Virus record (IMG/VR): IMGVR_UViG_3300042879_004465
Span: 1 to 60,595 of that record
DNA from: a virus
DNA: 60,595 bases
Direction: 5' to 3' (one strand)
Part shown: piece after piece, positions 8,067 through 59,907 of the stretch
Layout of the letters: each line of letters opens with the position of its first letter
Position numbering within the stretch: position 1 is the stretch's first letter
The notes under the pieces: model-generated
Database searches by the model: none
Seen by the model: the letters and a program-made list of their open reading frames with translations, nothing else
What the model was told of the DNA's origin: nothing
Program-made: the position numbers and the translations under genes

Positions 8067-8079
8067 GCTTAACTAACTA

Positions 8080-8375: not shown

Positions 8376-8381
8376 ATAACC

Positions 8382-8426: not shown

Positions 8427-8441
8427 GAAAGAAAGGTAAAA

Positions 8442-16655: not shown

Positions 16656-16658
16656 TCT

Positions 16659-16666
16659 TATAAATA
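16659..16666 (+). promoter_or_regulatory. Late promoter box TATAAATA
   Basis: An exact T4-type late box, nine bases before the gp25 ATG at 16676. Confidence 0.6.
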
Positions 16667-16675
16667 TTCTTGACT

Positions 16676-18183: not shown

Positions 18184-18184
18184 C

Positions 18185-18805
18185 ATGCTAGTATTTTTCA
18201 ATAATAGTCCCGGAGCATCGACACCAGATTCTGTTGTCACGGGCATAAATCGCATTGTCGAACAAACATTATTGACTCTGCGATCTTTAAATCTTCCGGA
18301 AAAAAACTGGGATGGAGACAAAATCCAAGTTAAAAAACAATTGCCTAAATGGGTTCAAAACACTTATGATGAATATCCATCAAGAGCTCCGGTAGTAGAT
18401 TTTTTTATTAACTATTATCGTTGGATGTTTGATCTTGAAGAGGGATATGGATGTGGATTTTATCTAGAAAATTTAAGAAATTTATCAAATGTTCCTGATA
18501 AATTTTTACAAGGATATGCCGATATTTTATTTGCCGGGGAGTTGGATTTGGATGTGTACCCAGAATTAAAAAATAATTTTAGAAAATGTTTATTAACATA
18601 TCATAGAGATTATGTGAAAATAAAGGGTACGCCCGATGGAATGCGATTTATTTTAAAATCATTATTTGGAGCAACGGTAGCAGAAGTTAGCACTCAATAT
18701 GCCACTAACATCAAAATAATTACTGATATGGATTCAAATTATCAAAATTTATTTAAGTTAATAGCTTGTCCATTTTCATTTAATGTATCATTTGTTTCAC
18801 CATGA
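18185..18805 (+). CDS. Minimal gp7 / tail protein I-like wedge protein
   Basis: A 206-residue protein. Its core (NVPDKFLQGYADILFAGEL then YHRDYVKIKGTPDGMRFIL, KSLFG) matches the 'Y..KGt..g.r.llr.lFG' motif of phage tail protein I (P2 gpI) and of the central part of T4 gp7. T4 gp7 has 1,032 residues, so the outer arms would be missing. It directly follows gp6, as gpI follows gpJ in P2-type phages. Family assignment is good; calling it the gp7 equivalent is inference. Confidence 0.65.
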   Translation: MLVFFNNSPGASTPDSVVTGINRIVEQTLLTLRSLNLPEKNWDGDKIQVKKQLPKWVQNTYDEYPSRAPVVDFFINYYRWMFDLEEGYGCGFYLENLRNLSNVPDKFLQGYADILFAGELDLDVYPELKNNFRKCLLTYHRDYVKIKGTPDGMRFILKSLFGATVAEVSTQYATNIKIITDMDSNYQNLFKLIACPFSFNVSFVSP

Positions 18806-25960: not shown

Positions 25961-25974
25961 ATAACTTCTAAATA
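25957..25974 (+). promoter_or_regulatory. Two late promoter boxes CTAAATA
   Basis: CTAAATA at 25957-25963 overlaps the gp17 stop, and a second copy lies at 25968-25974, 18 bases before the ATG of the first sheath gene. Two boxes 11 bases apart suggest strong or staggered initiation. Confidence 0.65.
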
Positions 25975-25992
25975 TCATAGAAAGACAAAAAT

Positions 25993-27981: not shown

Positions 27982-28000
27982 TAATTTTTTAATTAAATTT

Positions 28001-28033
28001 ATCTCCCTCAATTTTTGGGGGAGATATTTTTTT
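28001..28033 (+). terminator. Intrinsic terminator between the two sheath genes
   Basis: A 7-bp stem (28001-28007 with 28019-28025), then a T-rich run. It ends the transcript of sheath A before a fresh late promoter for sheath B, so the two copies can be expressed at different levels. Confidence 0.75.
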
Positions 28034-28046
28034 AAAAATAAACGTC

Positions 28047-28053
28047 CTAAATA
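28047..28053 (+). promoter_or_regulatory. Late promoter box CTAAATA
   Basis: CTAAATA 12 bases before the ATG of sheath copy B. Confidence 0.65.
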
Positions 28054-28065
28054 TTAGAAGAAACT

Positions 28066-30048
28066 ATGGGAATTAGCGATATAGACCCCGGCACAAATTC
28101 AAATGCCATTCCATCGGCATTTGATCATTTTCCTATGCCTGAAGGTGCCCCTCCTTTAAATCAAACTGGAGAAAATAAATTAGTTTGCGGTTTTGTATTA
28201 GGAACTAGTACCACCACTGGAACAACGGGATGTGGTTTATATGCAATTTTAAGAGCTGCATACGACAACTTAGTAAATACTGCTGCTATTGCTAGCGGCG
28301 ATTCAAATAATAATTTATTTTTTAACAATCTAGACTGTTTTGCATTGCCCCCCGGAGAACTTCAAACAAAAAATCCAATTTTTATTATTTCTGATCTCTT
28401 TACATTAAGAAGTTCAATGAATGAACTACATAATAATATCAATTATTTGATATTCAGAGTTGATTATAATAGAGTGGATCCGAGCGGCAATTCTACATTT
28501 CCGCTTCAAGGGCAATTTTTAGCAGCTACCAATCCTAATTCAGTAAGACAATACAATTTTTATACAAATTATTTGTTTTATGGATCTTATACCGGAGCAG
28601 AAAACGTAAATCCCGGACAACCATTTCTAGGAACAGACCTGCCACTTGGGGATCTCATGGGTAATGGGATAACCGCCGCGTTTTCTTTTGCGAATCCAAA
28701 AGGCGATGGAGTTTTTAATCTCGGAGATGGATTTATATCAAGAGCAGGCTTAGAATTATTTGCTCTTTATAATTACTTAAAATATGGAGGAATTGCGGTA
28801 ATAGCATCCTCATATGAAGATTTATACAAGATTAAAGATAAAGAAATATTAAGTCCTGATTATTTGGATCCTGAACAGGTTGGGACAAGATACTCAATAG
28901 TACCAAATGGACTAGATTGCATATTGACGCTAGATAATACTTCCATGTTGACTGGCGTAAATAACACCAATAATTCAAACGATGATGGAATGGTCTATGG
29001 AGGAGCTTATTATGGAGCAAATACAACAGACGGCTTGACAATTTATAATTTAACTCAAGGTTTGTTGCCGGAATATCTAGGAAATAGTTTTTGCGGAAAT
29101 GGTTTTAGGGGAAATATATTTTCTTCCATTCTTGAACAAGAAAAAAATCCAGATACGTTGATGATTTTTCATGCGGGACTTTCGGGAGTTTCTTTTGCAT
29201 ATTCTCAAGACTTTTTGGATCAACCAGAACTTGGATTTCGGCATCCATCTACGGACGGAATTCAATTTTTATACAGACAAAGAGTTACGAATAGCAATTT
29301 TAATTCAAACCCCGGACTTACTCTTGGTACTTTAAATACAAATCAATTGCAACGCCTCTGTTGTGTCCCAGGCGTGAATAATTATAGATTTTACTGGACA
29401 GTAGATGGCGTACAAAATGGTACGGTAGTTGGAGGAGGGCCGGATGGAACTCTTTGGGTTCCTTGCTTGCACGTCGTTGAATTTGTGGGGCTTTTGAATT
29501 GGGTAAAGGACGTTCCATTTTCTGGTCAAATTTTTGAATCAAATATAGGTCAAGAATACAGAGTTCCAATTGTAGGATTTTTGCCTTTACCACCAAATCA
29601 AAAAGTTTCAAGTACTCAATATTCTGTATCGGGAACCGAATATAATACTCTCATTCCGAAAAGATTGAATGTATTGAGTCAGCAGGGATATTTTCCGACA
29701 GACTTGGTTGGAGCAACGGGCTCTTCGTTCGTGATAAGAAACAGAAGAAATGCTGAAACTCTTTATTCATTCGCGTACAAAAAAGCACTTGAAGTGGTCA
29801 ATCTTTTCATAGGGTCCAATTTCATAAATAATACGGAAACCAGAAACAGAGTAATAGAGGACATACAGATAGAATATGAAACAGTTTCCCTTAACAGGTA
29901 TTTGAGAAATCCTTATACAATAATATGCAACACAAGCAATAATACGCCAGGAAGTAGCAAATTGACAGTAGAAGTAACGATAACGCCAAAAATAACTCAA
30001 TTTCCGGGGGGCGGAATTCCCCTGAGATTCAAGTTAACAGGAGGATAA
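28066..30048 (+). CDS. gp18: Tail sheath protein gp18, copy B
   Basis: A 660-residue paralogue of the preceding gene. Shared blocks include MGNGITAAFSF, YLKYGGIAVIAS, LTGVNNTNNSNDDGMVYGGAYY, LTQGLLPEYLGNSF, IFHAGLSGVSF, FRHPSTDG, DLVGATGSS and ICNTSNNTPGS. The copies differ in the N-terminal insertion loops. Both look intact and full length, so neither is a pseudogene. Copy B has its own late promoter and is followed closely by two tail-tube genes. Whether both are in one virion or are alternatives is unknown. Confidence 0.78.
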   Translation: MGISDIDPGTNSNAIPSAFDHFPMPEGAPPLNQTGENKLVCGFVLGTSTTTGTTGCGLYAILRAAYDNLVNTAAIASGDSNNNLFFNNLDCFALPPGELQTKNPIFIISDLFTLRSSMNELHNNINYLIFRVDYNRVDPSGNSTFPLQGQFLAATNPNSVRQYNFYTNYLFYGSYTGAENVNPGQPFLGTDLPLGDLMGNGITAAFSFANPKGDGVFNLGDGFISRAGLELFALYNYLKYGGIAVIASSYEDLYKIKDKEILSPDYLDPEQVGTRYSIVPNGLDCILTLDNTSMLTGVNNTNNSNDDGMVYGGAYYGANTTDGLTIYNLTQGLLPEYLGNSFCGNGFRGNIFSSILEQEKNPDTLMIFHAGLSGVSFAYSQDFLDQPELGFRHPSTDGIQFLYRQRVTNSNFNSNPGLTLGTLNTNQLQRLCCVPGVNNYRFYWTVDGVQNGTVVGGGPDGTLWVPCLHVVEFVGLLNWVKDVPFSGQIFESNIGQEYRVPIVGFLPLPPNQKVSSTQYSVSGTEYNTLIPKRLNVLSQQGYFPTDLVGATGSSFVIRNRRNAETLYSFAYKKALEVVNLFIGSNFINNTETRNRVIEDIQIEYETVSLNRYLRNPYTIICNTSNNTPGSSKLTVEVTITPKITQFPGGGIPLRFKLTGG

Positions 30049-40389: not shown

Positions 40390-41067
40390 ATGATTATAGA
40401 TTTAAGAAAAATTCAAACGGTATGGATTAATCTTGACGGCGCAACCGGAAATGCTCAAATTATGGAGCACAGATTCGGCATTCATAATTTTGAAAAAACA
40501 TACCGAAAATCGGCAAGACAAATAGCTCCGCCTCACGGAACACCGGATACAATTAAGCATTACGTAGGCTGTGCTCAATCTCATATTGATATTTTGGAGG
40601 ACACAAATTATTCGTGTCCTCTTTTAATTCTTGAAGATGATGCCGAGTTTACTCAAGACTTTCATCCTATGATTGAAGTTCCCGACAATACGGATGCGGT
40701 GTATCTAGGAGTATCTTCCGGTAATCCTCATTATTTGTCCAAGAGAGTAAACAAATATTTTCTTAGAATTGGAAAAATTTTGGCTACTCATGCTATTTTG
40801 TATTTGAATCCCGATTACAGAAAAGCGGTTGCAGACATTGCAAAAGTGTTTGCTTACAGATTAAAAATTCCATTTGACAATGGCTGTGCATTGATTCAGG
40901 AGAGATTCAATGTAATTACTCCCAACACTCCATTCTTTGTACAGGCAAACCAAAGACAAAGCGCAAATCAATGGGAAGCGGTGACATCAAAGCCCTTGGT
41001 TGACAAGAATAGCGATTTTCCTGTCAGAGAAGAAAACGTACAGCTAGGAATACAGGTGCCAGTATGA
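40390..41067 (+). CDS. GT25-type glycosyltransferase
   Basis: A 225-residue protein. WINLDG near residue 13, VGCAQSHIDIL (58-68) and LLILEDDAEF (77-86) are the three landmarks of glycosyltransferase family 25 (LPS/collagen galactosyltransferase type: 'NLd', 'GC..SH', 'LEDD'). The EDD would bind metal and nucleotide sugar. It is the first gene of the island, directly behind the consensus promoter. It overlaps the next gene by four bases (ATGA). Confidence 0.72.
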   Translation: MIIDLRKIQTVWINLDGATGNAQIMEHRFGIHNFEKTYRKSARQIAPPHGTPDTIKHYVGCAQSHIDILEDTNYSCPLLILEDDAEFTQDFHPMIEVPDNTDAVYLGVSSGNPHYLSKRVNKYFLRIGKILATHAILYLNPDYRKAVADIAKVFAYRLKIPFDNGCALIQERFNVITPNTPFFVQANQRQSANQWEAVTSKPLVDKNSDFPVREENVQLGIQVPV

Positions 41068-41852
41068 TTGGAATGACAAATTTAGGAAATAATGGTAGAT
41101 TTGGAAATCAAATGTTTCAGTATGCCACGCTATACGCGCTTGGTAAAGAACTAAACTATGAAATTGGAATTCCGTATTTAAATAAAAGTAATGATGACTA
41201 TTTTAATTTTTGTCTACCAGAGTGTTTTTCATTATCGGCAAAAGATTTAAAGGGCCATTATTTTTCATCTTATTATCAAGAACCTCACTTTTCTTATGAT
41301 ACTAATATTAAAAATATTCCTGATAATACAAATTTAAAAGGATATTTTCAAAGTGAAAAATATTTTAAAAATTGCAAAAATGATTTAATGTTTAAAGAAT
41401 TTAATTTTAATAACGAAATTAAAATAAAAACAAAAAAATTATTAAACGGAAGAGACTCAGAATTAATATCAGTACACATTAGACTGGGAGACTATTTAAA
41501 ATTTCAAGATTCTCATCCAATATGTTCTACTGACTACTATAAAACAGCAATCCAAATGCTACCAAGCGATGCAAATATTATGCTTTTTAGCGACGATTAT
41601 AGTTTGGCATTACCATTTTTTAAAGATTTGGGAATAAAAGTTTTTGCATGTGGTACAAATAATAAATTTATAGATATGTGTTTAATGACACAATGTGAAT
41701 ATCATATAATTGCAAATAGTTCATTTAGCTGGTGGGGTTCTTGGTTAAGCAATAGCAAAAAAACAATAGCACCAAAGCAATGGTTCGGTACAGCACCACA
41801 TATGCCAAAAATTTGGAATGATGTTTATGCAGAAGATTGGATTGTAATATGA
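41064..41852 (+). CDS. GT11-type fucosyltransferase
   Basis: A 262-residue protein. GNNGRFGNQMFQYATLYALG at the N-terminus, VHIRLGDYL (the HxRxGD motif), the MLFSDDYSLA stretch and ANSSFSWWGSWLS near the C-terminus are the full signature of family 11, which contains alpha-1,2-fucosyltransferases. The donor would be GDP-fucose or a related GDP-sugar. No GDP-fucose synthesis genes are seen in this window. ATGA overlaps on both sides place it within the operon. Confidence 0.86.
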   Translation: MIGMTNLGNNGRFGNQMFQYATLYALGKELNYEIGIPYLNKSNDDYFNFCLPECFSLSAKDLKGHYFSSYYQEPHFSYDTNIKNIPDNTNLKGYFQSEKYFKNCKNDLMFKEFNFNNEIKIKTKKLLNGRDSELISVHIRLGDYLKFQDSHPICSTDYYKTAIQMLPSDANIMLFSDDYSLALPFFKDLGIKVFACGTNNKFIDMCLMTQCEYHIIANSSFSWWGSWLSNSKKTIAPKQWFGTAPHMPKIWNDVYAEDWIVI

Positions 41853-42787
41853 TTACAGTTAGATGTCCTGTAAGAATATCTTTGGTAGGCGGGTCCAGCG
41901 ATCTTGATGCTTATGTAGATAAGCATGGAAAGGGATCTGTTATTTCATTTACTCCAAAAATTTATACTTATGTTTCTATTTACAGGGATAAAATTGGACG
42001 TAACACCATTGATCAAAAGTATATTGTAAATTATTCTCAGCGAGAAGAAGTAAATACAATAAAAGAAATTAAAAATGAACTTGTAAGATTATTTTTTGAA
42101 AAAGAAAGAGTCTATCCTTGTTCAATCCATATGACTAGCGATGTATTTTCTCATGGCTCCGGGCTTGCTGTATCTTCTTCGTATTCTTGTTGTTTGGTAA
42201 AAGCTATTTCCGAGTTAAACAAGACATATCTTTCTGATATTGAGTGTACGGCGAAAGCGCACATTTTAGAAAAATTAATAAATCCGCTTTTGGGGCAACA
42301 AGATGTTTTCGGATGTGGAATTGGTGGATTTAAAAAAATAGAATTTACTCAAAATAGTCTTCCAAAGTATACATTTTTACCGACATCTTTTTTTAATTAT
42401 TATGTTCCATATCTGGTATTTACAGGTCTTACTAGAAACTCTACTAGTATTTTAAAAAATGTTAATGTTCCAGATACCGATACTTTTAATCCTTTGGTAT
42501 TTGAATCAGAACAAATGATATTAAACGGAAACTATGAAAAGTTTTTGCGATTGATAAAGGCTGGCTGGGAAGAAAAAAAAAGAACATCAAAGAGTGTTTT
42601 AGAAGAGCAATCATTGAAAGACTTGGATGAGTATTTGGATAAATATCCTGGTTGCGTAGCACACAAGCTATGTGGTGCTGGCAATGGAGGATTTTTTTTA
42701 GCTTTCTTTGAAGCACAAAATCTTCCAACACATCATAAATTTATTAAAGTAGAATTGAGCAATAGCGGTATTGAAAAAATATTATGA
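41849..42787 (+). CDS. GHMP sugar kinase, HddA-like (heptose 7-phosphate kinase)
   Basis: A 312-residue protein. ITVRCPVRISLVGGSSDLDAY and the GHMP motif HGSGLAVSSSYS, with CGAGNGGFF near the C-terminus, give a clear GHMP fold. The N-terminal form (R-x-P-x-R-I-x-x-x-G-G-x-x-D) is that of D-glycero-D-manno-heptose 7-phosphate kinase HddA. The substrate is inferred from that and from the next gene, a GmhA-like isomerase. I chose ATG at 41849 (ATGA overlap with the preceding stop) over a TTG at 41837. Confidence 0.78.
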   Translation: MITVRCPVRISLVGGSSDLDAYVDKHGKGSVISFTPKIYTYVSIYRDKIGRNTIDQKYIVNYSQREEVNTIKEIKNELVRLFFEKERVYPCSIHMTSDVFSHGSGLAVSSSYSCCLVKAISELNKTYLSDIECTAKAHILEKLINPLLGQQDVFGCGIGGFKKIEFTQNSLPKYTFLPTSFFNYYVPYLVFTGLTRNSTSILKNVNVPDTDTFNPLVFESEQMILNGNYEKFLRLIKAGWEEKKRTSKSVLEEQSLKDLDEYLDKYPGCVAHKLCGAGNGGFFLAFFEAQNLPTHHKFIKVELSNSGIEKIL

Positions 42788-43296
42788 ATAATTTTATAAA
42801 TAAAATAGACTCAGCTCTTAAAAATTTAAATTTTATTGATTTGGATTATTTAAAAAAAATAGTATTAGACACCAAATCGGAAATTATTATATTAGGAAAC
42901 GGTGGCAGCAACGCTATTTCGTCTCATATAGCCGAAGACTATACAAAAGCGTTAAAGAAAAAAGCAATTGCATTTACAGACGGTGCTAGGCTAACATGCT
43001 ATTCTAATGATTATGGGTATGAGAATGCATTTAAACAATATCTATCAGAATTTTCCACAAAAGATAGTCTTGTAATTTTAATAAGCTCTTCTGGAAATTC
43101 TCAAAATATTTTAAATTGTGCTGAATATTGCCTTGAAAACAAAATTAAATACATTATTTTTTCAGGTTTTAAACAAAATAATTGTTTAATAACAAAATAT
43201 GCAGACCAATCATTGTTAAATTTTTGGGTAAATTCCGACGATTACGGTGTTGTTGAATGTATTCACGAAATTATTTTACACTCGGTAATATCATGA
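42784..43296 (+). CDS. gmhA: SIS-domain phosphosugar isomerase, GmhA-like
   Basis: A 170-residue protein with GNGGSNAISSHIAED (sugar-phosphate loop), TDGARLTCYSNDYGYENAF, LISSSGNSQN and a C-terminal ECIHEIILH helix. This is the pattern of sedoheptulose 7-phosphate isomerase GmhA, which makes D-glycero-D-manno-heptose 7-phosphate, the first step of activated-heptose synthesis. Family length is about 190 residues. It overlaps the kinase by four bases and the next gene by four. Confidence 0.82.
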   Translation: MNNFINKIDSALKNLNFIDLDYLKKIVLDTKSEIIILGNGGSNAISSHIAEDYTKALKKKAIAFTDGARLTCYSNDYGYENAFKQYLSEFSTKDSLVILISSSGNSQNILNCAEYCLENKIKYIIFSGFKQNNCLITKYADQSLLNFWVNSDDYGVVECIHEIILHSVIS

Positions 43297-44009
43297 TTTA
43301 CTGCTTCGATTTGGATGAGACTCTTTGTACTAAAGCTATTGATGGTGATTACGCTACTGCAATGCCAATAGAAGAGGCTATAGAAAAAGTAAACATTCTT
43401 TGGATATTAGGAAATAAAATTTTAATATTTACTGGCCGAGGATCTAGCAGTGGTAAAGATTGGGTGGAATTGACAAAACAACAATTAAAAAATTGGGGTG
43501 TAAAATATGACGAATTAATAATGAATCGCAAGCCTACTTACGATGTAATAATAGATGACAAAGCAATAAATGCTGTTGACTGGCGAAATACTTTTTGCAA
43601 AACTCGCGGAGTTGTCGCTGGAGCATTCGATCTAATACATCCGGGATATTGTAAGTTATTTAAATTTTGCAAAGAACATTGTACTCATCTTACTGTTTTA
43701 TTACATGATGATCCATCTATAGAGAGAAAAAAAATGAGTCCAGTTCACAATCTCGGAGAAAGAACGGAAATTTTAAAGTCCATTAGATACGTTGATGACG
43801 TAATTGCATATACCGATGAGCAGGATCTTGCTATAAAATTAGAACTTGGATATTACAATGTCAGATTTTTGGGAGATGATTATAGAACAAAACCATATAC
43901 TGCGGATTATCTTCCTATTAAGATCATCTATACAGATAGATCGCACGGTTATTCTACGACGCAGTTAAAGAAAAAAATAGCTGATTCATACAAGGAGTTT
44001 ATGGGATGA
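43293..44009 (+). CDS. HAD phosphatase-nucleotidyltransferase fusion
   Basis: A 238-residue two-domain protein. Residues 1-100 are a HAD phosphatase (CFDLDETLC with D6 and D8, then ILIFTGRG and VIIDDKA). Residues 105-238 are a small nucleotidyltransferase (GVVAGAFDLIHPGYCKLF, LLHDDPS, ERTEILKSIRYVDDV, DRSHGYSTTQLKKKI). The HxGH motif reads HPGY, which I recall as a variant in related phage and bacterial proteins. With the preceding kinase and isomerase it could do the phosphatase and nucleotidyl-transfer steps of heptose activation. I chose ATG at 43293 by the ATGA overlap. Confidence 0.78.
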   Translation: MIYCFDLDETLCTKAIDGDYATAMPIEEAIEKVNILWILGNKILIFTGRGSSSGKDWVELTKQQLKNWGVKYDELIMNRKPTYDVIIDDKAINAVDWRNTFCKTRGVVAGAFDLIHPGYCKLFKFCKEHCTHLTVLLHDDPSIERKKMSPVHNLGERTEILKSIRYVDDVIAYTDEQDLAIKLELGYYNVRFLGDDYRTKPYTADYLPIKIIYTDRSHGYSTTQLKKKIADSYKEFMG

Positions 44010-44902
44010 AAATAATCGTAACTGGCGGATGTGGTTTTATAGGTAGTCATTTAGTAGATATGCTGGTGGAAAAAGAACATCAAGTTATTGTGATTGATGA
44101 CTGTTCTGCTGACAATGAAAAGTTTTATTACAACCAAAAAGCAGAATACTATAAAAACTCTATCTGCGAAATGGATTTTTTAGATAAAGTAACCAAAAAT
44201 TGTGATTTTATATTTCATCTGGCCGCGGAATCTCGGCTGCAAAATTCAATATTAAATCCGAGACGAGCGGTAGATGTTAATATTGGTGGAACTATTAATC
44301 TGCTTGAGTGTTGCAAAAAACATAAAATAAAAGGAATTATATTTTCGTCTACCTCATGTGTGTATGGATTAACAAATTGTCTACCGATTAAGGAAGATCT
44401 ACCAGAAGATTGTCTGAATCCATATGCGTCTACAAAATACGCAGCAGAGCTATTGATAAAAAACTATGTAAAACTGTTTAATATTAATGCTTGTATTTTT
44501 AGATATTTCAATGTTTTCGGTGAACGTTCTCCTGCACATGGACCTTATGCGTTGGTGACAGGCATTTTTTTGAAACAAAAAGCAAACAACCAACCACTGA
44601 CGGTTGTCGGGACAGGCTTGCAAGAAAGAGATTTTATTTACGTAAAAGATGTTGCACTAGCAAACATATTGGCCATGGAACATTGGGATATTGATAATAT
44701 AAAATCTGGAAATGTATTCAATATCGGTTCGGGTTCGGCTATAAAGATTATAGATCTTGCAAAATCCATATCGGATAACATTCAATTTATACCACCAAGA
44801 CAAGGTGAGGCTGAAAATAATCTATGTTCAATAGAAAAAATTCAAAAAGAAATTGATTGGAAACCAACTATAAATATTTTAAAGTGGCTTGAAAGTCGGT
44901 GA
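44006..44902 (+). CDS. NAD-dependent sugar-nucleotide epimerase/dehydratase (GalE-like)
   Basis: A 298-residue extended short-chain dehydrogenase. The NAD loop is VTGGCGFIGSHL (5-16), the Thr/Ser region is FSSTSCVYG, and the catalytic Y-x-x-x-K is NPYASTKYAAEL. RYFNVFGERSP and ERDFIYVKDVA are typical of UDP-glucose/GlcNAc 4-epimerase relatives. The substrate may be UDP-hexose or an activated heptose. The C-terminus is short (about 20 residues less than GalE). It overlaps the preceding gene by four bases. Confidence 0.82.
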   Translation: MKIIVTGGCGFIGSHLVDMLVEKEHQVIVIDDCSADNEKFYYNQKAEYYKNSICEMDFLDKVTKNCDFIFHLAAESRLQNSILNPRRAVDVNIGGTINLLECCKKHKIKGIIFSSTSCVYGLTNCLPIKEDLPEDCLNPYASTKYAAELLIKNYVKLFNINACIFRYFNVFGERSPAHGPYALVTGIFLKQKANNQPLTVVGTGLQERDFIYVKDVALANILAMEHWDIDNIKSGNVFNIGSGSAIKIIDLAKSISDNIQFIPPRQGEAENNLCSIEKIQKEIDWKPTINILKWLESR

Positions 44903-44908
44903 ATTATT

Positions 44909-45706
44909 ATGTGCAATTTAACATCAATTATTCCGGTTAAAATTGATTCAGAACAAAGAAAAAAAAATATAGATATAACCTTGAGGTATTTGCTTCAAAA
45001 TACCGATTCCAAAATAATAATCACTGAATGTGATGATCATCCCAAATTTGATGTAAAACACTATAATTCAGATCGTATAAAATATAAGTTTGAAAAAATT
45101 CAAAACAATTTTTTTCATCGAACTCGTTTAATAAATCAAATGTTAAATGAAGTTGATACTCCGGTTGTAGCCAATTATGATGCTGATGTTATTTTACCAA
45201 AAACTTCATACGAAATATCGGAAAAATTAATTTTAACAAAACAAGCTGATGTGATCTATCCGTATGGCTTCAACTGTGCTGGACAAAGAAGAATATTTCC
45301 AGATACAAAAGGTTTAAACAAATTTTATCACACACTAAATCTTGATGATTTGGAGCTTGACCAAAGAAGCCCTTGGCTCAGTAGATACGGACATGTTCAA
45401 TTTTTTAATACTGAGTGCTATATAAAAGGTTTTATGGAGAATGAAAACTACAAGCATTGGTGTCCTGAAGATGATGAACGTGCAATTCGATTTCAAAAAT
45501 TGGGATATAAAGTTATTTGGTTAGACAGCTTGGTATATCACCAAGAACATCCACCTTCTACGCAATCACAGCCATCTAATCTGCATGAAATTTATAAACT
45601 TCACAATTACTTAATACAAGGAAACAAAGAGTCAATAGAAACATACTACAGAAGCCAAGAATATTTAAAAAAGTATGATTCTTATAAAAAATTATGCACA
45701 GCTTAA
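44909..45706 (+). CDS. GT2-like glycosyltransferase
   Basis: A 265-residue GT-A protein. LTSIIPVKIDS at the start and VVANYDADVILP (the D-x-D metal site) are typical of family 2. CPEDDERAIRFQKLGYKVIW then LVYHQEHPPS near residue 200 resembles the second domain of chondroitin-polymerase or galactosyltransferase types. The acceptor is unknown. It overlaps the next glycosyltransferase gene by 13 bases. Confidence 0.7.
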   Translation: MCNLTSIIPVKIDSEQRKKNIDITLRYLLQNTDSKIIITECDDHPKFDVKHYNSDRIKYKFEKIQNNFFHRTRLINQMLNEVDTPVVANYDADVILPKTSYEISEKLILTKQADVIYPYGFNCAGQRRIFPDTKGLNKFYHTLNLDDLELDQRSPWLSRYGHVQFFNTECYIKGFMENENYKHWCPEDDERAIRFQKLGYKVIWLDSLVYHQEHPPSTQSQPSNLHEIYKLHNYLIQGNKESIETYYRSQEYLKKYDSYKKLCTA

Positions 45707-46494
45707 TATTAACAATACACAATAAAGAGTTTTTGCTTCCGCGTGTGCTAGAGGGCATTAAGAATAATACTACAGGATCTTACGAGCTAATTGTGGTATT
45801 GGATGGTTGTTCGGATAGGTCTAGTCAAATAGTATACGATTATCATAATAAGTTTGATAAAATAAGAATATTTGAAACACCGAATGTATTTGAGACAAAG
45901 TCAAATAACGTTGGCCTAAAAAATAGCTCAGGCAAATATTGCACAATTATTCAAGACGATATGATTATAAATGAGTATGCTTGGAATGAAAGAATGGTAA
46001 AACCATTTTCTTTTGGTGATGTATTTGCAGTCACTTCTCGTACAGCTCATAATTGGCAGTTTAATCCTCACACACTCCATTTAAATCTGCCTAATGAATT
46101 GGACCATTGCTGGTGCGATGTTTTGAATCACGTAGATCACGCACATAGAGGAAACACTCCAAGAGAAGAATTTGCAATAAGAAGCTCGGTGAATCGTGGT
46201 CCACTGATGATTCTTCATGAGGATTTACAAAAATTAAATTACCTTGATGAGGAATTTAGTCCGCAAGACATGGATGATCATGATTTTTGCTATAGAGCTA
46301 AAAAAATCTTAAATAAAGTGTGTGGTTGTTATTGGGTAGACATAATAACACAAGATTCTTGGGGAGGAACTAGAGTTTCTGGTTCACCGGCGGCATGGTT
46401 ATTAAAAGCTCATCACAAAAATACAAAAATATTTTATAATAGACATAAGGATTTAATTCATTCACCTCAAGCGATAGAAAGTAGAAAATTATGA
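45694..46494 (+). CDS. GT2 glycosyltransferase
   Basis: A 266-residue protein with SLILTIHNKEFLLPRVLEGI, ELIVVLDGCSDRS and an IIQDDMIIN metal site, the standard family 2 layout. NRGPLMILHEDLQKLNYLDE then MDDHDFCYRAKK is the acceptor-side motif. The start overlaps the preceding gene by 13 bases and no Shine-Dalgarno sequence is clear. Donor and acceptor are unknown. Confidence 0.78.
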   Translation: MHSLILTIHNKEFLLPRVLEGIKNNTTGSYELIVVLDGCSDRSSQIVYDYHNKFDKIRIFETPNVFETKSNNVGLKNSSGKYCTIIQDDMIINEYAWNERMVKPFSFGDVFAVTSRTAHNWQFNPHTLHLNLPNELDHCWCDVLNHVDHAHRGNTPREEFAIRSSVNRGPLMILHEDLQKLNYLDEEFSPQDMDDHDFCYRAKKILNKVCGCYWVDIITQDSWGGTRVSGSPAAWLLKAHHKNTKIFYNRHKDLIHSPQAIESRKL

Positions 46495-47099
46495 TAAATC
46501 AAGTCAAAGAAGCAATTTCAGACGAAAGATGGATGCAGACACAACCTGGAGAAAAAGCAGGACATATTATTGATCCAATAGAAATTTCATATAAAAAATA
46601 TAAAATTGCATATAGTTATTATTTTCAATATTTAAATATTGAAAATTTAGATTTAAAACAAAAAAGTGTAATAGAAATAGGCTGTGCTAGAATTTCTTCT
46701 TTATTTTTTTGTAATAACTATTCGACTTCATATGTAATAGAGCCCACATATTACCCAGAAGCCGATCAGTATTATGAAGGAAAAAATATTATCAAAATAC
46801 ACGATAAAGCAGAAAAATGTAATTTTCCAAAAACCGATGAAGTATGGTTGTTTAATGTTTTAGACCACGTTCAAGATCCAGATTTAATTATTAATAAAGC
46901 AAAACAAAATGCTAAAATTATTAGGTTTTTTGAACCTATTGATTGTGGTACTAATTTGGAGCATCCTTTTAGTTTTACTTTAAACGATTACAAAAAATAT
47001 TTTGGTGATTGTGTAAAACTTTATAGTTGTCCAAACAAAGAACACCCTTCCAAGATGTTTCATGGCTCCGATTGCGCTTACGGAGTTTATTATGTCTAA
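46491..47099 (+). CDS. Methyltransferase-like protein, copy 1
   Basis: A 202-residue protein that looks like a small class I SAM methyltransferase. There is an EIGCARISSLFF stretch where motif I (usually E-x-G-x-G-x-G) should be, YVIEPTYYPE as motif II, and DEVWLFNVLDHVQDPDLII with FFEPID as post-motifs. The missing glycines in motif I make SAM binding uncertain. It has a tandem paralogue directly downstream. It may methylate a sugar or be a non-catalytic remnant. Confidence 0.6.
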   Translation: MINQVKEAISDERWMQTQPGEKAGHIIDPIEISYKKYKIAYSYYFQYLNIENLDLKQKSVIEIGCARISSLFFCNNYSTSYVIEPTYYPEADQYYEGKNIIKIHDKAEKCNFPKTDEVWLFNVLDHVQDPDLIINKAKQNAKIIRFFEPIDCGTNLEHPFSFTLNDYKKYFGDCVKLYSCPNKEHPSKMFHGSDCAYGVYYV

Positions 47100-47679
47100 A
47101 AAATCAATTGACGATCAAAGATGGAACGAAGCTCAACAGGCCGAGAAGCCACACCATATAGCAGATTCTTTGAGCCATTCATATACACACTATGATAAAA
47201 TTTATGATATGTATTTTCAATATTTAAATATTGAAAAACAAAATCTTAAACAAAAATCTATTGCTGAAATAGGACCAGCACGAATACCTGGTTTGTTTTT
47301 TTGTAAAAATTATTCTAAATCATATGTGATTGAGCCAACTTATTATCCAGAAACAGATGAATATTATCGGGGAAAAAATATTGTTAGAATTTTTGAAAAA
47401 GCAGAAAATTGTAAATTTCCACAAACTGATGAAATTTGGCTACTAAATTTATTACAACACGTACAAGACCCAGATAAACTAATAGCACTATGCAAAAAAA
47501 ATGCAAAGACTATTAAATTTTTTGAACCAATAGATTATCCAATTAGCGTTGAACATCCTTTTACTTTTTCTTTTGAAGATTATGTTGAATATTTTGGAAA
47601 TAGTGTAAAGAGATATACTCCAGTGCCGGGATTCCATCAAGCAAATTGTGTGTATGGTGTATATGAAAACAATTGGTAA
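47092..47679 (+). CDS. Methyltransferase-like protein, copy 2
   Basis: A 195-residue paralogue of the preceding gene, overlapping it by eight bases. Matching blocks are DDQRWNEAQQAEKPHHIADS, YFQYLNIEKQNLKQKS, EIGPARIPGLFF, YVIEPTYYPE, LLNLLQHVQDPDKLI and FFEPIDYP. I chose ATG at 47092 over an upstream in-frame start at 47062 because the paralogue aligns from there. As in copy 1, motif I lacks the usual Gly pattern. Confidence 0.6.
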   Translation: MSKKSIDDQRWNEAQQAEKPHHIADSLSHSYTHYDKIYDMYFQYLNIEKQNLKQKSIAEIGPARIPGLFFCKNYSKSYVIEPTYYPETDEYYRGKNIVRIFEKAENCKFPQTDEIWLLNLLQHVQDPDKLIALCKKNAKTIKFFEPIDYPISVEHPFTFSFEDYVEYFGNSVKRYTPVPGFHQANCVYGVYENNW

Positions 47680-47717
47680 ACAAAAAATATTTACTTAAAT
47701 ATGGTTTGGGTGTATAA

Positions 47718-48419
47718 ATGAAAAATTTAAAAAATATTACTTTAGTGTCAATAAATTGTGTTAATCCACGCGAGTCTTATAAAGCATTAAAATATTGTTC
47801 GAAGTTTTTTAATTTTTATGACACTATTTTATTTACAGATGATAAAAGTAACTATGAAGGAGTAAATGTAAAAAAAATACCAAAATTAACATGGGAAACA
47901 TATAACGATTTTGTGTTGCATTTAGATTCTTATATTAAAAGCGAATATGTTTTAATAATTCAAGACGATGGTCACATAGTTAATCCTGATTTGTGGACGG
48001 ATGAATTTTTAAAATATGATTACATAGGAGCTCCTTGGCCAAGCGAAATTGACTGGATTGAAAAACAACTTCCCACACAACAAGAATACATGAAAAAATA
48101 TTTTCCAAAAAATAGAGTTGGAAATGGTGGATTTTCTTTACGAAGCAAAAAATTTTTACAATTTTCTAATCAGTATATTTCTTGTGAAGGCGTAGGAGAA
48201 GATAGTTTTTTATGCACACGGATCTATGAAGAGGCTATAGAGTATGGAATCAAATTTGCTCCATTTGATTTGGCTGTACATTTTTCATATGAAAATCCTT
48301 GTATAGAATTTGGTTTTACTTGGAATTCTAGAATATACTTTGATAAAACAAAGCATTTTGGCTGGCATGGAAAAAACTTCATAAATACACATGAATTACT
48401 TTCTTTAAAGGATACATAA
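47718..48419 (+). CDS. DUF5672-type glycosyltransferase-like protein
   Basis: A 233-residue protein. YVLIIQDDGHIVN (GT-A D-x-D), YDYIGAPWP near residue 100, and NRVGNGGFSLRSKKFL are the hallmark of DUF5672, a family linked to glycosyltransferases. VGEDSFLC follows as the acceptor-side acidic motif. A 38-base gap and a weak TTAAATA precede it, so it may begin a second transcript within the island. Confidence 0.72.
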   Translation: MKNLKNITLVSINCVNPRESYKALKYCSKFFNFYDTILFTDDKSNYEGVNVKKIPKLTWETYNDFVLHLDSYIKSEYVLIIQDDGHIVNPDLWTDEFLKYDYIGAPWPSEIDWIEKQLPTQQEYMKKYFPKNRVGNGGFSLRSKKFLQFSNQYISCEGVGEDSFLCTRIYEEAIEYGIKFAPFDLAVHFSYENPCIEFGFTWNSRIYFDKTKHFGWHGKNFINTHELLSLKDT

Positions 48420-48420
48420 T

Positions 48421-49410
48421 ATGGTGATTTTGATTACTGGGTGTGCTGGTTTACTTGGTGCCAATTATACTCGCCATTGCCTGAATAATGGACACACTGT
48501 AATAGGAATAGATGATTTTTCTGGCGGCTATAAGAGTTTTCTTCCGTCTCATTCATCATTCACCTTTTATGAATTGAATATCCTTGATCAAGATAAATTA
48601 ACAGACATTTATAAAAAGCATTTACCGGAATGTACATATCATTTTGCAGCTTATGCTGCAGAAGGTTTGTCTCCTTTTATTAGAAATTTTAATTATACCA
48701 ATAACATCATTTGCTCTGCAAATGTCATTAATTGTTGTGTAAATTTTAATAGTAAATTAATTTTCACTTCTAGTATGGCCGTCTACGGCAAACAACCAGC
48801 TCCATTCACTGAAGACTTATTGCCAGTTCCGATAGACCCATACGGAATTGCAAAGTATGCTGTTGAACTTGACATAAAGCAAGCGCATGAACAATTTGGT
48901 CTGAGATACAATATTATTAGACCACATAATGTTCTTGGTATGTATCAAAATATTTGGGATAGATATAGAAATGTAATAGGAATATTTATTAGAAAAGCTA
49001 TAAATGGAATTCCTTTATTGGTATATGGTGATGGAGAACAAACACGCGCATTTTCTGATATAAACTACTATATGGATCCATTTGATTCATTGATGTGCAA
49101 AAATGATGGTGAGTTGTTTAATATAGGAGCAGACAAATATTATTCCATTAATGAAGCTGCAGATATAGTTAAACAAGTTGCAAAAAAATATAACTATAAT
49201 GTCTCCATAAAATATGTGGAACCAAGGCATGAAGTCAAGCATGCCTATTGTGATCATACAAAGGCAAAGCAATATTTAAACTTTGAAGACAAAACAGATT
49301 TGCATGATTTGATAGAAAAAATGTTTGGATGGGCAATAAAAGAACCAAACAGAGATCTAAAAATTATGAAATATGAAATAGAAAAAAACATGTATAGTTA
49401 CTGGAAGTGA
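48421..49410 (+). CDS. NAD-dependent sugar-nucleotide epimerase
   Basis: A 329-residue extended short-chain dehydrogenase with LITGCAGLLGANY, FTSSMAVYGKQ, DPYGIAKYAVEL (catalytic Y-x-x-x-K), IIRPHNVLG and a GDGEQTRAFSDINYY stretch. It looks closest to UDP-glucose 4-epimerase or uronate-epimerase relatives. It sits one base after the DUF5672 gene. Together with the epimerases at 44006 and 51651 the island has three such enzymes. Confidence 0.8.
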   Translation: MVILITGCAGLLGANYTRHCLNNGHTVIGIDDFSGGYKSFLPSHSSFTFYELNILDQDKLTDIYKKHLPECTYHFAAYAAEGLSPFIRNFNYTNNIICSANVINCCVNFNSKLIFTSSMAVYGKQPAPFTEDLLPVPIDPYGIAKYAVELDIKQAHEQFGLRYNIIRPHNVLGMYQNIWDRYRNVIGIFIRKAINGIPLLVYGDGEQTRAFSDINYYMDPFDSLMCKNDGELFNIGADKYYSINEAADIVKQVAKKYNYNVSIKYVEPRHEVKHAYCDHTKAKQYLNFEDKTDLHDLIEKMFGWAIKEPNRDLKIMKYEIEKNMYSYWK

Positions 49411-49431
49411 TAAATAAAATATTGGTTTATT

Positions 49432-50127
49432 ATGCAAATTGAAATTTTTATCCGTCATTGTTTTTATTCCCCAAACTCAGCAATACCTAATCGGCATCGC
49501 CCGGATTGGTTTGACAAAGAAAAAATATTTAAAAATTTTAAAAAAGAAGCCAACAAACCAAATTGCAATTATACAATTATATACGACAATCACTTTGGCC
49601 CCCGCAATCAAACTTTTCTGAAAGACGAGACAAATGTGGTTGATATAAACTGTGGTACTGAGGCAAGTAGTTTTATTTTTATGTTGAATTATGTTAGAGA
49701 AAAGAATTATAATCCAGAAACTATAATATATTTTGTAGAGGACGATTATCTCCATAGACCAGATTGGGATGTAGCAATGCGAGAAGCATTTGGGTTGCCA
49801 ATTCATTACGTATCTTTATATGACCATTTGGACAAGTATCTATATTATCCTGATTTATTTTCTAAAATTTATTGTACTTCCAGATGTCATTGGAGAACAG
49901 TACCATCTACATGCAATACATATGCGGTTAAATTCAAACAATTGATGGAAGATTATCATACAAACGAAGTGTATAGTGTATATTCTAATAATGGTGTTTC
50001 ACGTGATCATGAAAAATTTGTAGACTTAGGACGACAAGGAAAAGTATTGGTAACTCCGATGCCTGGTTATGCGACTCACTGCGATCACTTACAATCGCCC
50101 ACGCTTGACTGGAAACAGTACATATGA
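49432..50127 (+). CDS. Putative GT-A glycosyltransferase
   Basis: A 231-residue protein. IIYFVEDDYLHRPDW near residue 100 carries an EDD metal site. YVSLYDHLDKY, RCHWRTVPSTCNTYAV, and GYATHCDHL follow. I recall this block set in uncharacterised viral and bacterial glycosyltransferase-like proteins. The donor and product are unknown. It overlaps the next gene by four bases. Confidence 0.55.
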   Translation: MQIEIFIRHCFYSPNSAIPNRHRPDWFDKEKIFKNFKKEANKPNCNYTIIYDNHFGPRNQTFLKDETNVVDINCGTEASSFIFMLNYVREKNYNPETIIYFVEDDYLHRPDWDVAMREAFGLPIHYVSLYDHLDKYLYYPDLFSKIYCTSRCHWRTVPSTCNTYAVKFKQLMEDYHTNEVYSVYSNNGVSRDHEKFVDLGRQGKVLVTPMPGYATHCDHLQSPTLDWKQYI

Positions 50128-50951
50128 AAGATTGTGTTGTTTATTTGGCAGGCAATAGCGAAGATAATATCAAAGATTTTTATAAAAGTTTATCGTTGTT
50201 GTACGAAAATTATCTTAAAACATTTCAATGTGATGTTGTTGTATTTCACGAAAAAGAATTTATTTCAAAGTTACCCGATTTAATAAAGACGTTTTCAAAT
50301 ATCTCATTTAAATTCTTTGAAATACAATTTAACACTCCAAAGTATCCACCAAATATAATGGAAAATATTCCTGAATATTTTCCGCACCCGACTCATGGCA
50401 GCGGACCCATTGCATGGGGGCATCCCGGGTTTAGTCTAGGATATAGACATATGTGCAATTTTTTTAGTGGAGAGCTATATCAGCAAGTTGGATTGAATGA
50501 CTACGATTATTATATGAGGCTAGACACCGACTCTTATATTTTAAAAAAAGTTACATATAATGTTTTTGATATGATGCGTCATCATGATGCCATATATGGT
50601 TTTATAGGAGCCGCAGTGCAAATTGACAATTCAAAAGTTGTTGAAGGTCTGTGGGAATATTGTAAAAAATTTTCAGATTTAAGTGAGCATGTAAAAGATA
50701 AATTAAAAATTTTAAACATACCTTCTGGAAAAATGTATTACAATAATTTTGAAATAGGAAAAATATCTTGGTTTAAAGGATCTTCTTATAGAGCTTTTTA
50801 CGAGTATATAAAAGAGTCAGGAGGAATTTATACTAAAAGATGGGGCGATGCTCCTATTAGATATTTGGGCATTAATTTATTATTGGATGATTGTAAATTA
50901 ATAGATATAAATAATATCGCATACCAACATGGAGCCATTTATAATTTATGA
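50124..50951 (+). CDS. GT15-type alpha-1,2-mannosyltransferase
   Basis: A 275-residue protein matching yeast Kre2/Mnt1 family 15. Landmarks are GFSLGYRHMCNFFSGELY near residue 103, YYMRLDTDSYI near 131, YNNFEIGKISWFKGSSYRAF near 206 and a GGIYTKRWGDAPIRYLGINL block near 232. Family 15 enzymes transfer mannose from GDP-mannose in fungal Golgi and lack signal anchors only in rare bacterial or viral forms. No signal anchor is seen here. A fungal-type enzyme in a phage is unusual. Recognition is strong; specificity is inferred from the family. Confidence 0.82.
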   Translation: MKDCVVYLAGNSEDNIKDFYKSLSLLYENYLKTFQCDVVVFHEKEFISKLPDLIKTFSNISFKFFEIQFNTPKYPPNIMENIPEYFPHPTHGSGPIAWGHPGFSLGYRHMCNFFSGELYQQVGLNDYDYYMRLDTDSYILKKVTYNVFDMMRHHDAIYGFIGAAVQIDNSKVVEGLWEYCKKFSDLSEHVKDKLKILNIPSGKMYYNNFEIGKISWFKGSSYRAFYEYIKESGGIYTKRWGDAPIRYLGINLLLDDCKLIDINNIAYQHGAIYNL

Positions 50952-51637
50952 ATAATTTTTGTTTACTTATGTATTGCAATGAAAAATATAAATTATTTCA
51001 AGAAAAAACTTCAAGATCATTAATAGAGAGTGGTATTATAAATAAAAGTTTTATTAAAGATGAAAATGATTTAAAACAAACAATTTTCTACGAAGAACAT
51101 AAAAAAATATTATCTGTTCCAAGAGGAGCAGGATATTGCTTGTGGAAACCATATTATATTTTGGAAACCTTATTATTATTACAAGATAATGAAATATTAT
51201 TTTATTTGGATAGTGGGGACTGTATAATAAACATTTTAGAATTTAAAGAAAAAATTGATAAATTAATTTTTGACAAAGACTATTTGTTTTTTGATGGAGG
51301 ATTTTTACAAAAAGAATATACTAGATATGATTGTTTTTATATGATGAATTGTTTAAATTCAAATTACACAGATAGAATTCAGTTAGAAGCTGGTGTTTTA
51401 TTTTTAAAAAATACACCATTTATTAAAAATTTTGTAAAAGAATGGTTGTATTATTGTTCCAATTATCAAATAATAAGTGATGAACAAAATATATACGGAA
51501 ACAATTTTCCAGAATTTAAAGATCATAGACATGATCAGAGTATTCTGACTAATCTTGTAGAAAAATATAAATTATCTAGTATTCCAATGGAAAATTCTGT
51601 TAGACAAGACAATATAAAATGTAATTATTATAAGTAA
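50948..51637 (+). CDS. Unclassified glycosyltransferase-like protein
   Basis: A 229-residue protein. VPRGAGYCLWKPYYILETL near residue 56, LFYLDSGDCI (D-x-G metal-site-like) and HRHDQSILTNLV near the C-terminus match a glycosyltransferase-like family that I recall from giant viruses, phages and bacterial glycan clusters ('RG.GYW.WKPY...Y.D.G....HR.DQS'). It overlaps the GT15 gene by four bases. Catalytic role and donor are unknown. Confidence 0.55.
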   Translation: MNNFCLLMYCNEKYKLFQEKTSRSLIESGIINKSFIKDENDLKQTIFYEEHKKILSVPRGAGYCLWKPYYILETLLLLQDNEILFYLDSGDCIINILEFKEKIDKLIFDKDYLFFDGGFLQKEYTRYDCFYMMNCLNSNYTDRIQLEAGVLFLKNTPFIKNFVKEWLYYCSNYQIISDEQNIYGNNFPEFKDHRHDQSILTNLVEKYKLSSIPMENSVRQDNIKCNYYK

Positions 51638-51650
51638 AAAAGGAAAATTT

Positions 51651-52628
51651 ATGAAAACAGCGTTAGTTTTAGGAGCAGGCGGATTTATTGGTGGGCATCT
51701 TGTAACTCGCTTGAAAAATAGAGGATATTGGGTTCGCGGCGTAGACATTAAAGAACACGAATATAAAAAATCAGAGGCAGACGAATTTTTATTATTGGAT
51801 TTGCGAGACTCTATTAATGTTGAAGCAGCACTAAAATTGAATAATGAAACTTTTGATGAAATATATCAACTAGCAGCCGATATGGGTGGCGCCGGTTATA
51901 TTTTTACAGGTGAACATGATGCAGACGTTATGCACAATTCAGCTATTATTAATTTAAATGTTGCTAACAGTGCAGTACAATACAAAAAAATGCCAAAGAT
52001 TTTTTATTCTTCATCGGCATGCATGTATCCTGAATATAATCAATTAGATCCCAATAACCCAAAGTGTAGTGAAGAATCGGCTTATCCGGCTGCACCTGAC
52101 AGCGAATATGGATGGGAAAAGCTGTTCAGTGAACGTGTGTATTTGGCGTATAATAGAAATTATAAGTTACCCGTTCGCATTGGTCGTTTTCACAATATTT
52201 TTGGTCCTTATGGATCTTGGAATAACGGAAAAGAAAAAGCCCCGGCAGCAGTTTGTCGAAAAGTTGCGTCAGCAGAAGAAGGTGGATCGATTGAAATTTG
52301 GGGAGACGGAAAACAAACAAGATCATTTTTATATATTGATGAGTGTTTAGACACTATTGAAAAGTTTATGAAATCAGACTTTTTGGGACCAATGAACATT
52401 GGCTCTGAAGAAATGGTTTCAATCAATGAACTTGCAAACCGAGTGATGTCAATTGCAAATAAAAATGTTACAATTCAAAATAAACCCGGACCAGAGGGAG
52501 TTCGCGGAAGAAATTCTGATAATACTCTAATGCGAGAAAAATTAAATTGGGCTCCAAGCGCTCCGTTGAATGAAGGGTTAAAAAAGACCTATGAGTGGAT
52601 CAATAGTATGGTAAATCCATCTACTTGA
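51651..52628 (+). CDS. GDP-mannose 3,5-epimerase-like SDR
   Basis: A 325-residue protein. VLGAGGFIGGHL (NAD loop), LAADMGGAGYIF, YSSSACMYPE, ESAYPAAPDSEYGWEKLF (Y-x-x-x-K), RIGRFHNIFGPYGSW and EKAPAAVCRK are the near-complete signature of plant-type GDP-mannose 3,5-epimerase, which makes GDP-L-galactose or GDP-L-gulose from GDP-mannose. With heptose-activating genes upstream it might instead act on GDP-heptose. AAAAGGAAA precedes ATG. It is the last gene of the island. Confidence 0.85.
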   Translation: MKTALVLGAGGFIGGHLVTRLKNRGYWVRGVDIKEHEYKKSEADEFLLLDLRDSINVEAALKLNNETFDEIYQLAADMGGAGYIFTGEHDADVMHNSAIINLNVANSAVQYKKMPKIFYSSSACMYPEYNQLDPNNPKCSEESAYPAAPDSEYGWEKLFSERVYLAYNRNYKLPVRIGRFHNIFGPYGSWNNGKEKAPAAVCRKVASAEEGGSIEIWGDGKQTRSFLYIDECLDTIEKFMKSDFLGPMNIGSEEMVSINELANRVMSIANKNVTIQNKPGPEGVRGRNSDNTLMREKLNWAPSAPLNEGLKKTYEWINSMVNPST

Positions 52629-58599: not shown

Positions 58600-59907
58600 A
58601 TGAACAATATTACTTTATGCATGATCGTAAAAAATGAATCGCACATCATTAAGGATTGCATTCAGTCCGTATCGAAATACATTGATAATTATGTAATTTG
58701 CGATACGGGATCTACCGACAACACAAAGCAAATTATCAAGGAATATTTTGATTCTGTCAATATTCCCGGAGAGATCCACGACCACGAATGGGAAAACTTC
58801 GGGGCGAATAGAACAAAGGCCCTTGACATGTGCAGAGGCAAGAGCAAGTGGATCATCATGATCGATGCCGACGATTACATCGAAGGCGACATGCCAACTG
58901 ATTTCAACGATGAAATCGACGGATACACAGTAAATATTCGTAGAGGAAATTTTGAATGGAAGAGAGCACAGATCTTCAATCTTGCTCGCAAAAATTGGCA
59001 CTATGTAGAGCCTATTCACGAATATCCATTCTGCGAGCAGCCAATGAATGTCCAACACTTGCAAGGGAATTACGCCTTCCAAGTCAGAACTGCTGGATAT
59101 AGAACGATTTCATGTGCTACGCAGCAAGAGAAGTATTGGAAAGACTATGAGTTGCTCAAAAAGGCAATGGAAACAGATCCTACTTCACAGAGAAAGCAAT
59201 TCTATTTGGCACAATCGGCGTTCGATTCTCACAGATGGGACATTGCGGAACAGGAATACCAAAAGAGAGTTGAAATGGGAGGCTGGAATGAAGAAATGTT
59301 CTTCGCGCAACTTCGCGTTGGAATCTGCAGAGAAATGCAGCAAAAGCCAGTCGAACAGATCGCAGACGCATTCCTCAAGTCATGGGAAATGCGGCCTATC
59401 AGGGCGGAGCCTCTTTATCATCTTTCTTGCATTTATAGAAAGTATGGCCGTCCTGCTGCAGCATTTATAGTAGCCTTCCAAGCTTTGTCTCTTCCAAAGC
59501 CAGAGGGAGACATTCTATTCGTTGACAACGACCCGTATAAATGGGGCATCTTGGATGAGATCGTCTCCACTGCACATGCAGTAGGAAAGTTTCATCTGGG
59601 GTTACAAGCAGCCGATAGATTATTGAATGAAAATTTGCTACCACCCGAGCAGATTGAAAGAGTCCAGAAGAATAGACAATCTTATTACAATAAGGTAATG
59701 GAAATTCAAATGGCTATGGCGGAGCAAAACAAAAAACAAGCAGAAGCACAAGCAAAGCTCCACATTCCCCCTGTTCCAGCAACCACATTGAATGTTCCAT
59801 CGGTCATTCCTAACGTTTTTGCCCCAAAAGCAGTATACGGGCAAGAATCGAGATCTCCGGTAGCAGTTCAAACCAAAAAATTAAGCAAAAAGAAGAGAAG
59901 AAAATAA
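58600..59907 (+). CDS. GT2 glycosyltransferase with TPR-like helical region
   Basis: A 435-residue protein. Residues 1-95 are a family 2 domain (LCMIVKNESHIIKDCI, ICDTGSTDNT, MIDADDYIEGD). Residues 150-340 are helical repeats with TPR character (YLAQSAFDSHRWDIAEQEYQ then EPLYHLSCIYRKYGRPAAAF). The C-terminus is a Gln/Ala helix then a basic KKLSKKKRRK end. It follows RegA after three bases with GGAG before ATG, so it appears to be expressed early with the replication genes rather than with the glycan island. Confidence 0.82.
   Translation: MNNITLCMIVKNESHIIKDCIQSVSKYIDNYVICDTGSTDNTKQIIKEYFDSVNIPGEIHDHEWENFGANRTKALDMCRGKSKWIIMIDADDYIEGDMPTDFNDEIDGYTVNIRRGNFEWKRAQIFNLARKNWHYVEPIHEYPFCEQPMNVQHLQGNYAFQVRTAGYRTISCATQQEKYWKDYELLKKAMETDPTSQRKQFYLAQSAFDSHRWDIAEQEYQKRVEMGGWNEEMFFAQLRVGICREMQQKPVEQIADAFLKSWEMRPIRAEPLYHLSCIYRKYGRPAAAFIVAFQALSLPKPEGDILFVDNDPYKWGILDEIVSTAHAVGKFHLGLQAADRLLNENLLPPEQIERVQKNRQSYYNKVMEIQMAMAEQNKKQAEAQAKLHIPPVPATTLNVPSVIPNVFAPKAVYGQESRSPVAVQTKKLSKKKRRK

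Follow-up and report, generated by a model that had tools for sequence, protein, structure and literature searches.

A family GT15 glycosyltransferase gene in a sugar-enzyme cassette of a T4-like phage

The open reading frame at 50124–50951 of the DNA analysed here (the window, a virus record of 60,595 bases) is a real gene and a member of glycosyltransferase family GT15. To judge from profile searches, its relatives form a large and diverse branch of the family that is carried by aquatic viruses, among which T4-like phages are numerous. We propose, with a probability of about 0.7, that the phage protein is a soluble, Mn-dependent, retaining GDP-mannose transferase which would extend an oligosaccharide built by the phage; this reading is drawn from the sequence and a structural model. 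The features of the window are presented in table 1.

Table 1. Features of the window: the GT15 gene, its aligned motifs and the surrounding cassette (aa, amino acids).
Feature	Position	Strand	Basis or occurrence
GT15 (Glyco_transf_15) gene, soluble, 275 aa	50124..50951	+	PF01793, model, structure matches
H42-E43, aligned to guanine-contact N172-D173 of Ktr4p	50247..50252	+	alignment
GYRHMC block, aa 106-111	50439..50456	+	alignment
DxD metal motif D134-T135-D136, at the place of fungal EPD/EPN	50523..50531	+	alignment
YNNFEI block, aa 206-211	50739..50756	+	alignment
RWGDAP block, aa 239-244	50838..50855	+	alignment
H269, aligned to Mn ligand H411 of Ktr4p	50928..50930	+	49/49 rows
GT25-like protein, weak	40390..41067	+	E 0.0036, below cut-off
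GT11 family (fucosyltransferase-type)	41064..41852	+	homologue in 51/80 GT15 loci
Three genes: GHMP kinase (HddA-like), SIS isomerase (GmhA-like), HAD/cytidylyltransferase-type fusion	41837..44009	+	below equivalog cut-offs
NAD-dependent epimerase/dehydratase	44006..44902	+	family search
Cassette protein without family	44909..45706	+	homologue in 36/80 loci
GT2 glycosyltransferase	45694..46494	+	homologue in 39/80 loci
Two overlapping phrog_3603 proteins, methyltransferase-like (weak)	46491..47679	+	PHROG
DUF5672 protein	47718..48419	+	family search
NAD-dependent epimerase/dehydratase	48421..49410	+	family search
Protein without family, overlaps GT15 start by 4 bases	49432..50127	+	homologue in 10/80 loci
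GT-A fold protein, overlaps GT15 end by 4 bases	50948..51637	+	homologue in 37/80 loci; model
GDP-mannose 3,5-epimerase, two genes after GT15	51651..52628	+	2c59, E 2.7e-94

Family, fold and active site of the phage protein

The frame starts at an ATG, runs uninterrupted and occupies exactly the interval given in table 1, whose opposite strand is crowded with stops. The first-pass annotation had assigned the protein to GT15 on account of signature blocks, and this assignment is confirmed. The profile PF01793 (Glyco_transf_15) matches it with 122.5 bits and an E-value of 3.1e-35 over profile positions 58–323 of 325, the curated cut-off being 25 bits, and both the YNNFEI block and the stretch GGIYTKRWGDAP (aa 233–244), which carries RWGDAP, are present. 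A phmmer search with the protein recovered the three solved GT15 enzymes (1s4n, 5a07 and 7boo), and the viral GT15 profile matches GT15 entries of the PDB at E-values of 1.7e-45 to 2.9e-42.

The AlphaFold model, calculated from 49 aligned viral sequences, has a pLDDT of 92.9. GT15 structures rank first when it is searched with Foldseek (E 1.2e-20 to 1.5e-17; next family, 9.8e-8), and VIA-align gives Z scores of 26.8–28.3 to Kre2/Ktr4/CmsA and 15.9 to the next fold. The search for another glycosyltransferase family assigned none: there is no PHROGs or NCBIfam match, and other folds are far behind. The protein had also been described as devoid of a signal anchor; its best 19-residue Kyte–Doolittle mean is 0.84 and it has no hydrophobic segment. 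A membrane anchor is likewise absent from all 49 aligned viral GT15 rows, where this mean is at most 1.6.

The active site was mapped by alignment of the phage protein to Ktr4p, with residues counted over the 49 viral rows. In the GDP/Mn complex of Ktr4p, as described in part of PMC4546622, E262 and H411 are the Mn ligands, Y235 binds phosphate and N172-D173 contact guanine. By this alignment the Mn-, phosphate- and guanine-binding positions are kept in the phage enzyme. D134, which aligns with E262, and D136 are found in 49 of 49 rows, as are Y107 (Y235 of Ktr4p), M110 (M238) and the four residues R239, W240, G241 and D242, and E43, at the place of D173, is acidic throughout (Glu in 40 rows, Asp in nine). 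E210 aligns with E329 of Kre2p. It is Glu in 41 rows, Asp in three and Phe in five, and the Phe rows were counted against our main reading. The same holds for the position of R142 of Ktr4p, which is G10 in the window protein and Arg in 30 of the 49 rows. The yeast GT15 enzymes treated in the passages of PMC4546622 have EPD, EPN or other variants in place of a DxD, so the metal motif of the viral branch differs from theirs.

The T4-like nature of the phage, already noted in the first reading, is confirmed by the PHROG and Pfam matches of the window. The structural genes encode a gp23-type head protein, a gp20-type portal, a terminase and a tail sheath stabilizer; there are also a single-stranded DNA-binding protein, baseplate proteins, a clamp loader and a translation repressor, and the recombination and late genes include UvsW, UvsY and a late sigma factor. 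The nearest relatives of the major capsid protein belong to Synechococcus phages (54% identity). A PHROG 'beta-1,4-glycosyltransferase' (phrog_13126, E 1.7e-30) is encoded at 58600–59907, outside the main cassette and right after the translation-repressor gene.

Distribution of GT15 in viruses and cells

At least 103 distinct IMG/VR contigs carry a GT15 relative, by a hand count over two profile scans that gave the best 80 of 115 relatives and the best 80 of 118 (75 loci). PF01793 clears its cut-off in each of the six records taken first, one of which is the window. There are 73 distinct viral GT15 proteins, of which 49 are complete and less than 92% identical to one another, the truncated L056 being left out. 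Alignment A2 contains 48 of these 49 rows, without the L078 fusion, together with L002.

In the resulting tree of 52 rows, the 49 viral rows are split from the three fungal rows at 100/100; as these three are its sole eukaryotic sequences, the tree is not properly rootable. Together with the number of contigs, this split supports the idea of an unnoticed viral branch put forward in the first-pass annotation. L003 joins the window and L002 in a group with support of 98/91. T4-like phages occur in each of the two outer clades of the tree: the larger includes the window itself, and the smaller comprises L074, L079, L086 and their kin, L074 being 69% identical to L105, whose record has a T4 portal. 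Five loci (L074, L079, L083, L084 and L086) each have two GT15 genes close together.

Phage markers were searched for in subsets of the GT15-bearing records, many of which are fragments. Among the records examined, which are part of the 103 contigs, a T4-type capsid is present in six of 50 and a T4 portal in three of 19. The PHROG 2 terminase profile matches 13 of 26 records, several of them weakly, and also matches 11 of 14 control genomes. A giant-virus origin was tested with an NCLDV capsid profile, which matches none of 26 records, a weak result because the profile is silent in the controls too. PHROG matches were obtained for one of five proteins in one record and five of five in another. 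The L045 record (G027) has a terminase match in three pieces inside one 1452-aa frame (25579–29631) and a thymidylate synthase match, also in three pieces, at 16609–18729; intein or intron insertion is possible.

Among the prokaryotes covered here, the GT15 family is almost absent. No tblastn match was found in 50,697 records of cultured phages or in 72,556 plasmids. PF01793 exceeds its cut-off in none of 386 cyanobacterial genomes, where it gives two weak matches, and in none of 14 control genomes, the sole reach of this search beyond Cyanobacteriota. The viral GT15 profile matches four of the 386, two of them strongly. A scan of GTDB species genomes yielded 11 stretches and, among them, a single relative, from a Prochlorococcus; the patterns of the scan are present in only 39 of the 73 distinct viral proteins, so that it can miss about half. 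Within these genomes and this roughly half-sensitive scan, no common bacterial enzymes of the family were found.

The two strong matches are L088 (Prochlorococcus AG-449-J16; E 9.0e-24) and L089 (a cyanobacterium; E 1.1e-17). Like the phage proteins, both have an acidic DxD-type motif, and GYRHMC and RWGD are kept in L088. However, L088 is only 27% identical to the phage protein and is not recognized by PF01793, and L089 is below the cut-off. Both rows had end branches longer than 4 in an earlier tree and were dropped from the final one. The L088 gene lies at 7890–8744 of a single-cell genome, with GT25, GT4, GT2 and ABC transporter genes as neighbours.

The best BFVD match of the phage protein is A0A5J6VLB3 from a Megaviridae environmental sample (E 1.9e-16, TM 0.76). 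This giant-virus protein, from a virus of eukaryotes, shares the fold, has 536 aa and is 21% identical to the phage protein. It is conceivable, if improbable, that the family was virus-associated at its root. The oldest and most diverse branch, with the canonical DxD, would then be that of phages and giant viruses, and the Golgi enzymes of fungi would go back to an ancestor that was viral or was carried by a virus.

The first-pass annotation had also suggested a donor outside the typical phage hosts, here taken to be fungal, and this suggestion gained no positive support. A Golgi gene of fungal (eukaryotic) origin would have entered this phage lineage recently and lost its anchor, which would fit a published survey where PF01793, among 153 genomes, turned up in fungi only (part of PMC5225481). 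The phage protein is, however, only 22–27% identical to the solved fungal enzymes, DxD stands in place of EPD/EPN in all 49 viral rows, the viral contigs are many and very diverse, and the 49 viral rows are separated from the three fungal rows at 100/100 in the tree. We therefore regard such a transfer as very improbable. The passages on GT15 in PMC7185993 have no bearing on origin. A broad phage branch alters the picture of where this family occurs, since the above survey met PF01793 in fungi only.

The cassette around the GT15 gene

The GT15 gene lies in a cassette of about 12 kb (40390–52628), which has UvsY/UvsW on one side and the late sigma factor on the other. The G+C content of the cassette is 31.3%, whereas two stretches of core genes have about 40%; this difference suggests an island that is mobile or was acquired separately. 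The two phrog_3603 genes at 46491–47679 look like a tandem duplication. The model of the protein encoded from 50948 has a pLDDT of 93.8 and a GT-A fold; VIA-align ranks the PBCV-1 capsid glycosyltransferase first (Z 14.5), in a tie with GT6 enzymes. The product of 51651–52628 is close to the plant-type GDP-mannose 3,5-epimerase (2c59), the next family reaching only 7.6e-22. Relatives of this epimerase occur in 169 phage records, with generic names among the matches listed.

The neighbourhoods of 80 viral GT15 loci were surveyed, with flanks of up to 6 kb, many of them cut by contig ends. At least one other cassette homologue lies beside GT15 in 63 of the 80 loci and at least three in 39, always on the GT15 strand (80/80). 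The gene order 50948 homologue–GT2–GT15 is found in 35 of 37 loci. The window departs from this common order, its 50948 gene following GT15, and the GDP-mannose 3,5-epimerase adjoins GT15 in only five of the 80 loci; both observations were counted against our main reading. In L078, a single frame (5347–6756) joins an FkbM-type methyltransferase domain to GT15, a fusion that was counted in favour of our main reading.

None of the cassette proteins has a clear membrane segment: their highest hydropathy value is 1.64, at the N-terminus of one SDR protein, as against 2.34 and 2.77 in two membrane proteins used as controls. Since the cassette proteins look soluble, assembly of the glycan probably takes place in the cytosol. 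No polytopic flippase, polymerase or ligase was found among them, the window being part of a genome.

Proposed function and comparison with known systems

Mn-dependent, retaining transfer from GDP-mannose is predicted from the family and from the active-site residues, and the GDP-mannose 3,5-epimerase of the cassette fits a GDP-mannose economy. GDP-mannose, or a close GDP-manno-type sugar, would be taken from the host pool and held by the DxD motif, H269, Y107 and the acidic guanine contact. GT15 would then put one alpha-linked residue onto the growing oligosaccharide, as one step of a phage-encoded cytosolic assembly line that includes several glycosyltransferases, methyltransferase-like proteins and nucleotide-sugar enzymes. 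We infer the donor and the acceptor, as well as the linkage, which would be alpha-1,2 as in the fungal relatives. According to part of PMC9602691, marine Synechococcus and Prochlorococcus encode a GDP-mannose-making enzyme domain; they may not be the hosts of this phage.

A donor other than mannose deserves mention, because the genes at 41837–44009 are a possible phage route to nucleotide-activated heptose. The HddA-like kinase, the GmhA-like isomerase and the fusion, all in the same cassette, could supply a GDP- or CDP-activated manno-heptose to GT15. All three are below the equivalog cut-offs, however, and the fusion has a homologue beside GT15 in one of the 80 loci. Moreover, the nucleotidyltransferase is of the CTP type by its best model, yet GT15 keeps an acidic guanine contact. 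A heptose donor thus seems improbable, and mannose is preferred.

As for the acceptor, a glycan on a virion protein has nearly even odds in our estimate. The host lipopolysaccharide or its precursors are a more tentative candidate; their modification would give the infected cell an altered surface, as a defence against superinfection, for instance. This is the usual interpretation of cyanophage sugar genes (part of PMC9602691), and the position of the distant Prochlorococcus homologue L088 in a host polysaccharide locus means that a surface glycan fits as well. The lack of a polytopic flippase, polymerase or ligase in the cassette, as far as the part of the genome in the window shows, speaks against it.

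Some other acceptor, DNA included, is unlikely. In one such scheme the cassette, GT15 contributing a step, decorates hydroxymethylated bases in the DNA of the phage. Hydroxymethylases belong to the thymidylate-synthase family, PF00303, which was found in one of 28 GT15-bearing records and in none of those of 166, 177, 197 and 197 kb; the records are classed as fragments, where absence is no proof. With 27 of 28 records devoid of a thymidylate-synthase-type gene, DNA is the less likely acceptor. Sets of phage glycosyltransferases that do glycosylate DNA exist (Pyle 2024, as cited in part of PMC12619734), but we hold the scheme to be improbable here.

The fungal enzymes Kre2p/Mnt1p, Ktr4p and CmsA (1s4n, 5a07 and 7boo) are alpha-mannosyltransferases of GT15. 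They share with the phage enzyme the family model, the GT-A fold, the Mn-binding His, the phosphate-binding Tyr and RWGD. In contrast to them, the phage enzyme is shorter, has no membrane anchor, carries DxD instead of EPD/EPN and is encoded in a phage operon. The Kre2/Mnt1 Golgi subgroup is distinguished by an N-terminal signal anchor and an EPD/EPN-type metal motif, neither of which the phage protein has, and by three disulfides in the C-terminal subdomain (part of PMC4546622). Phage GT15 proteins would offer soluble, anchor-free versions of the family for biochemistry.

Among T4-like cyanophages, S-SCSM1 carries GDP-mannose and GDP-fucose genes, including a GDP-mannose 3,5-epimerase (part of PMC9602691). 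The cultured P-TIM68 has a similar cassette: it encodes GT11, GT2 and a GDP-mannose 3,5-epimerase, and both the 44909 and the 50948 protein have homologues in it. Unlike the window, its stretch has no GT15 gene by a search with the viral profile. The GT15 step is therefore variable and dispensable, which was counted against our main reading. The phage branch of GT15 points to a recurring phage unit of glycan assembly. Chloroviruses have virus-encoded capsid glycans, and the product of the cassette, if it is placed on virions, would resemble these and the glycans of mycobacteriophages. In the latter, glycosylation of the virion has been described (Freeman 2023, as cited in parts of PMC12619734 and PMC10877033).
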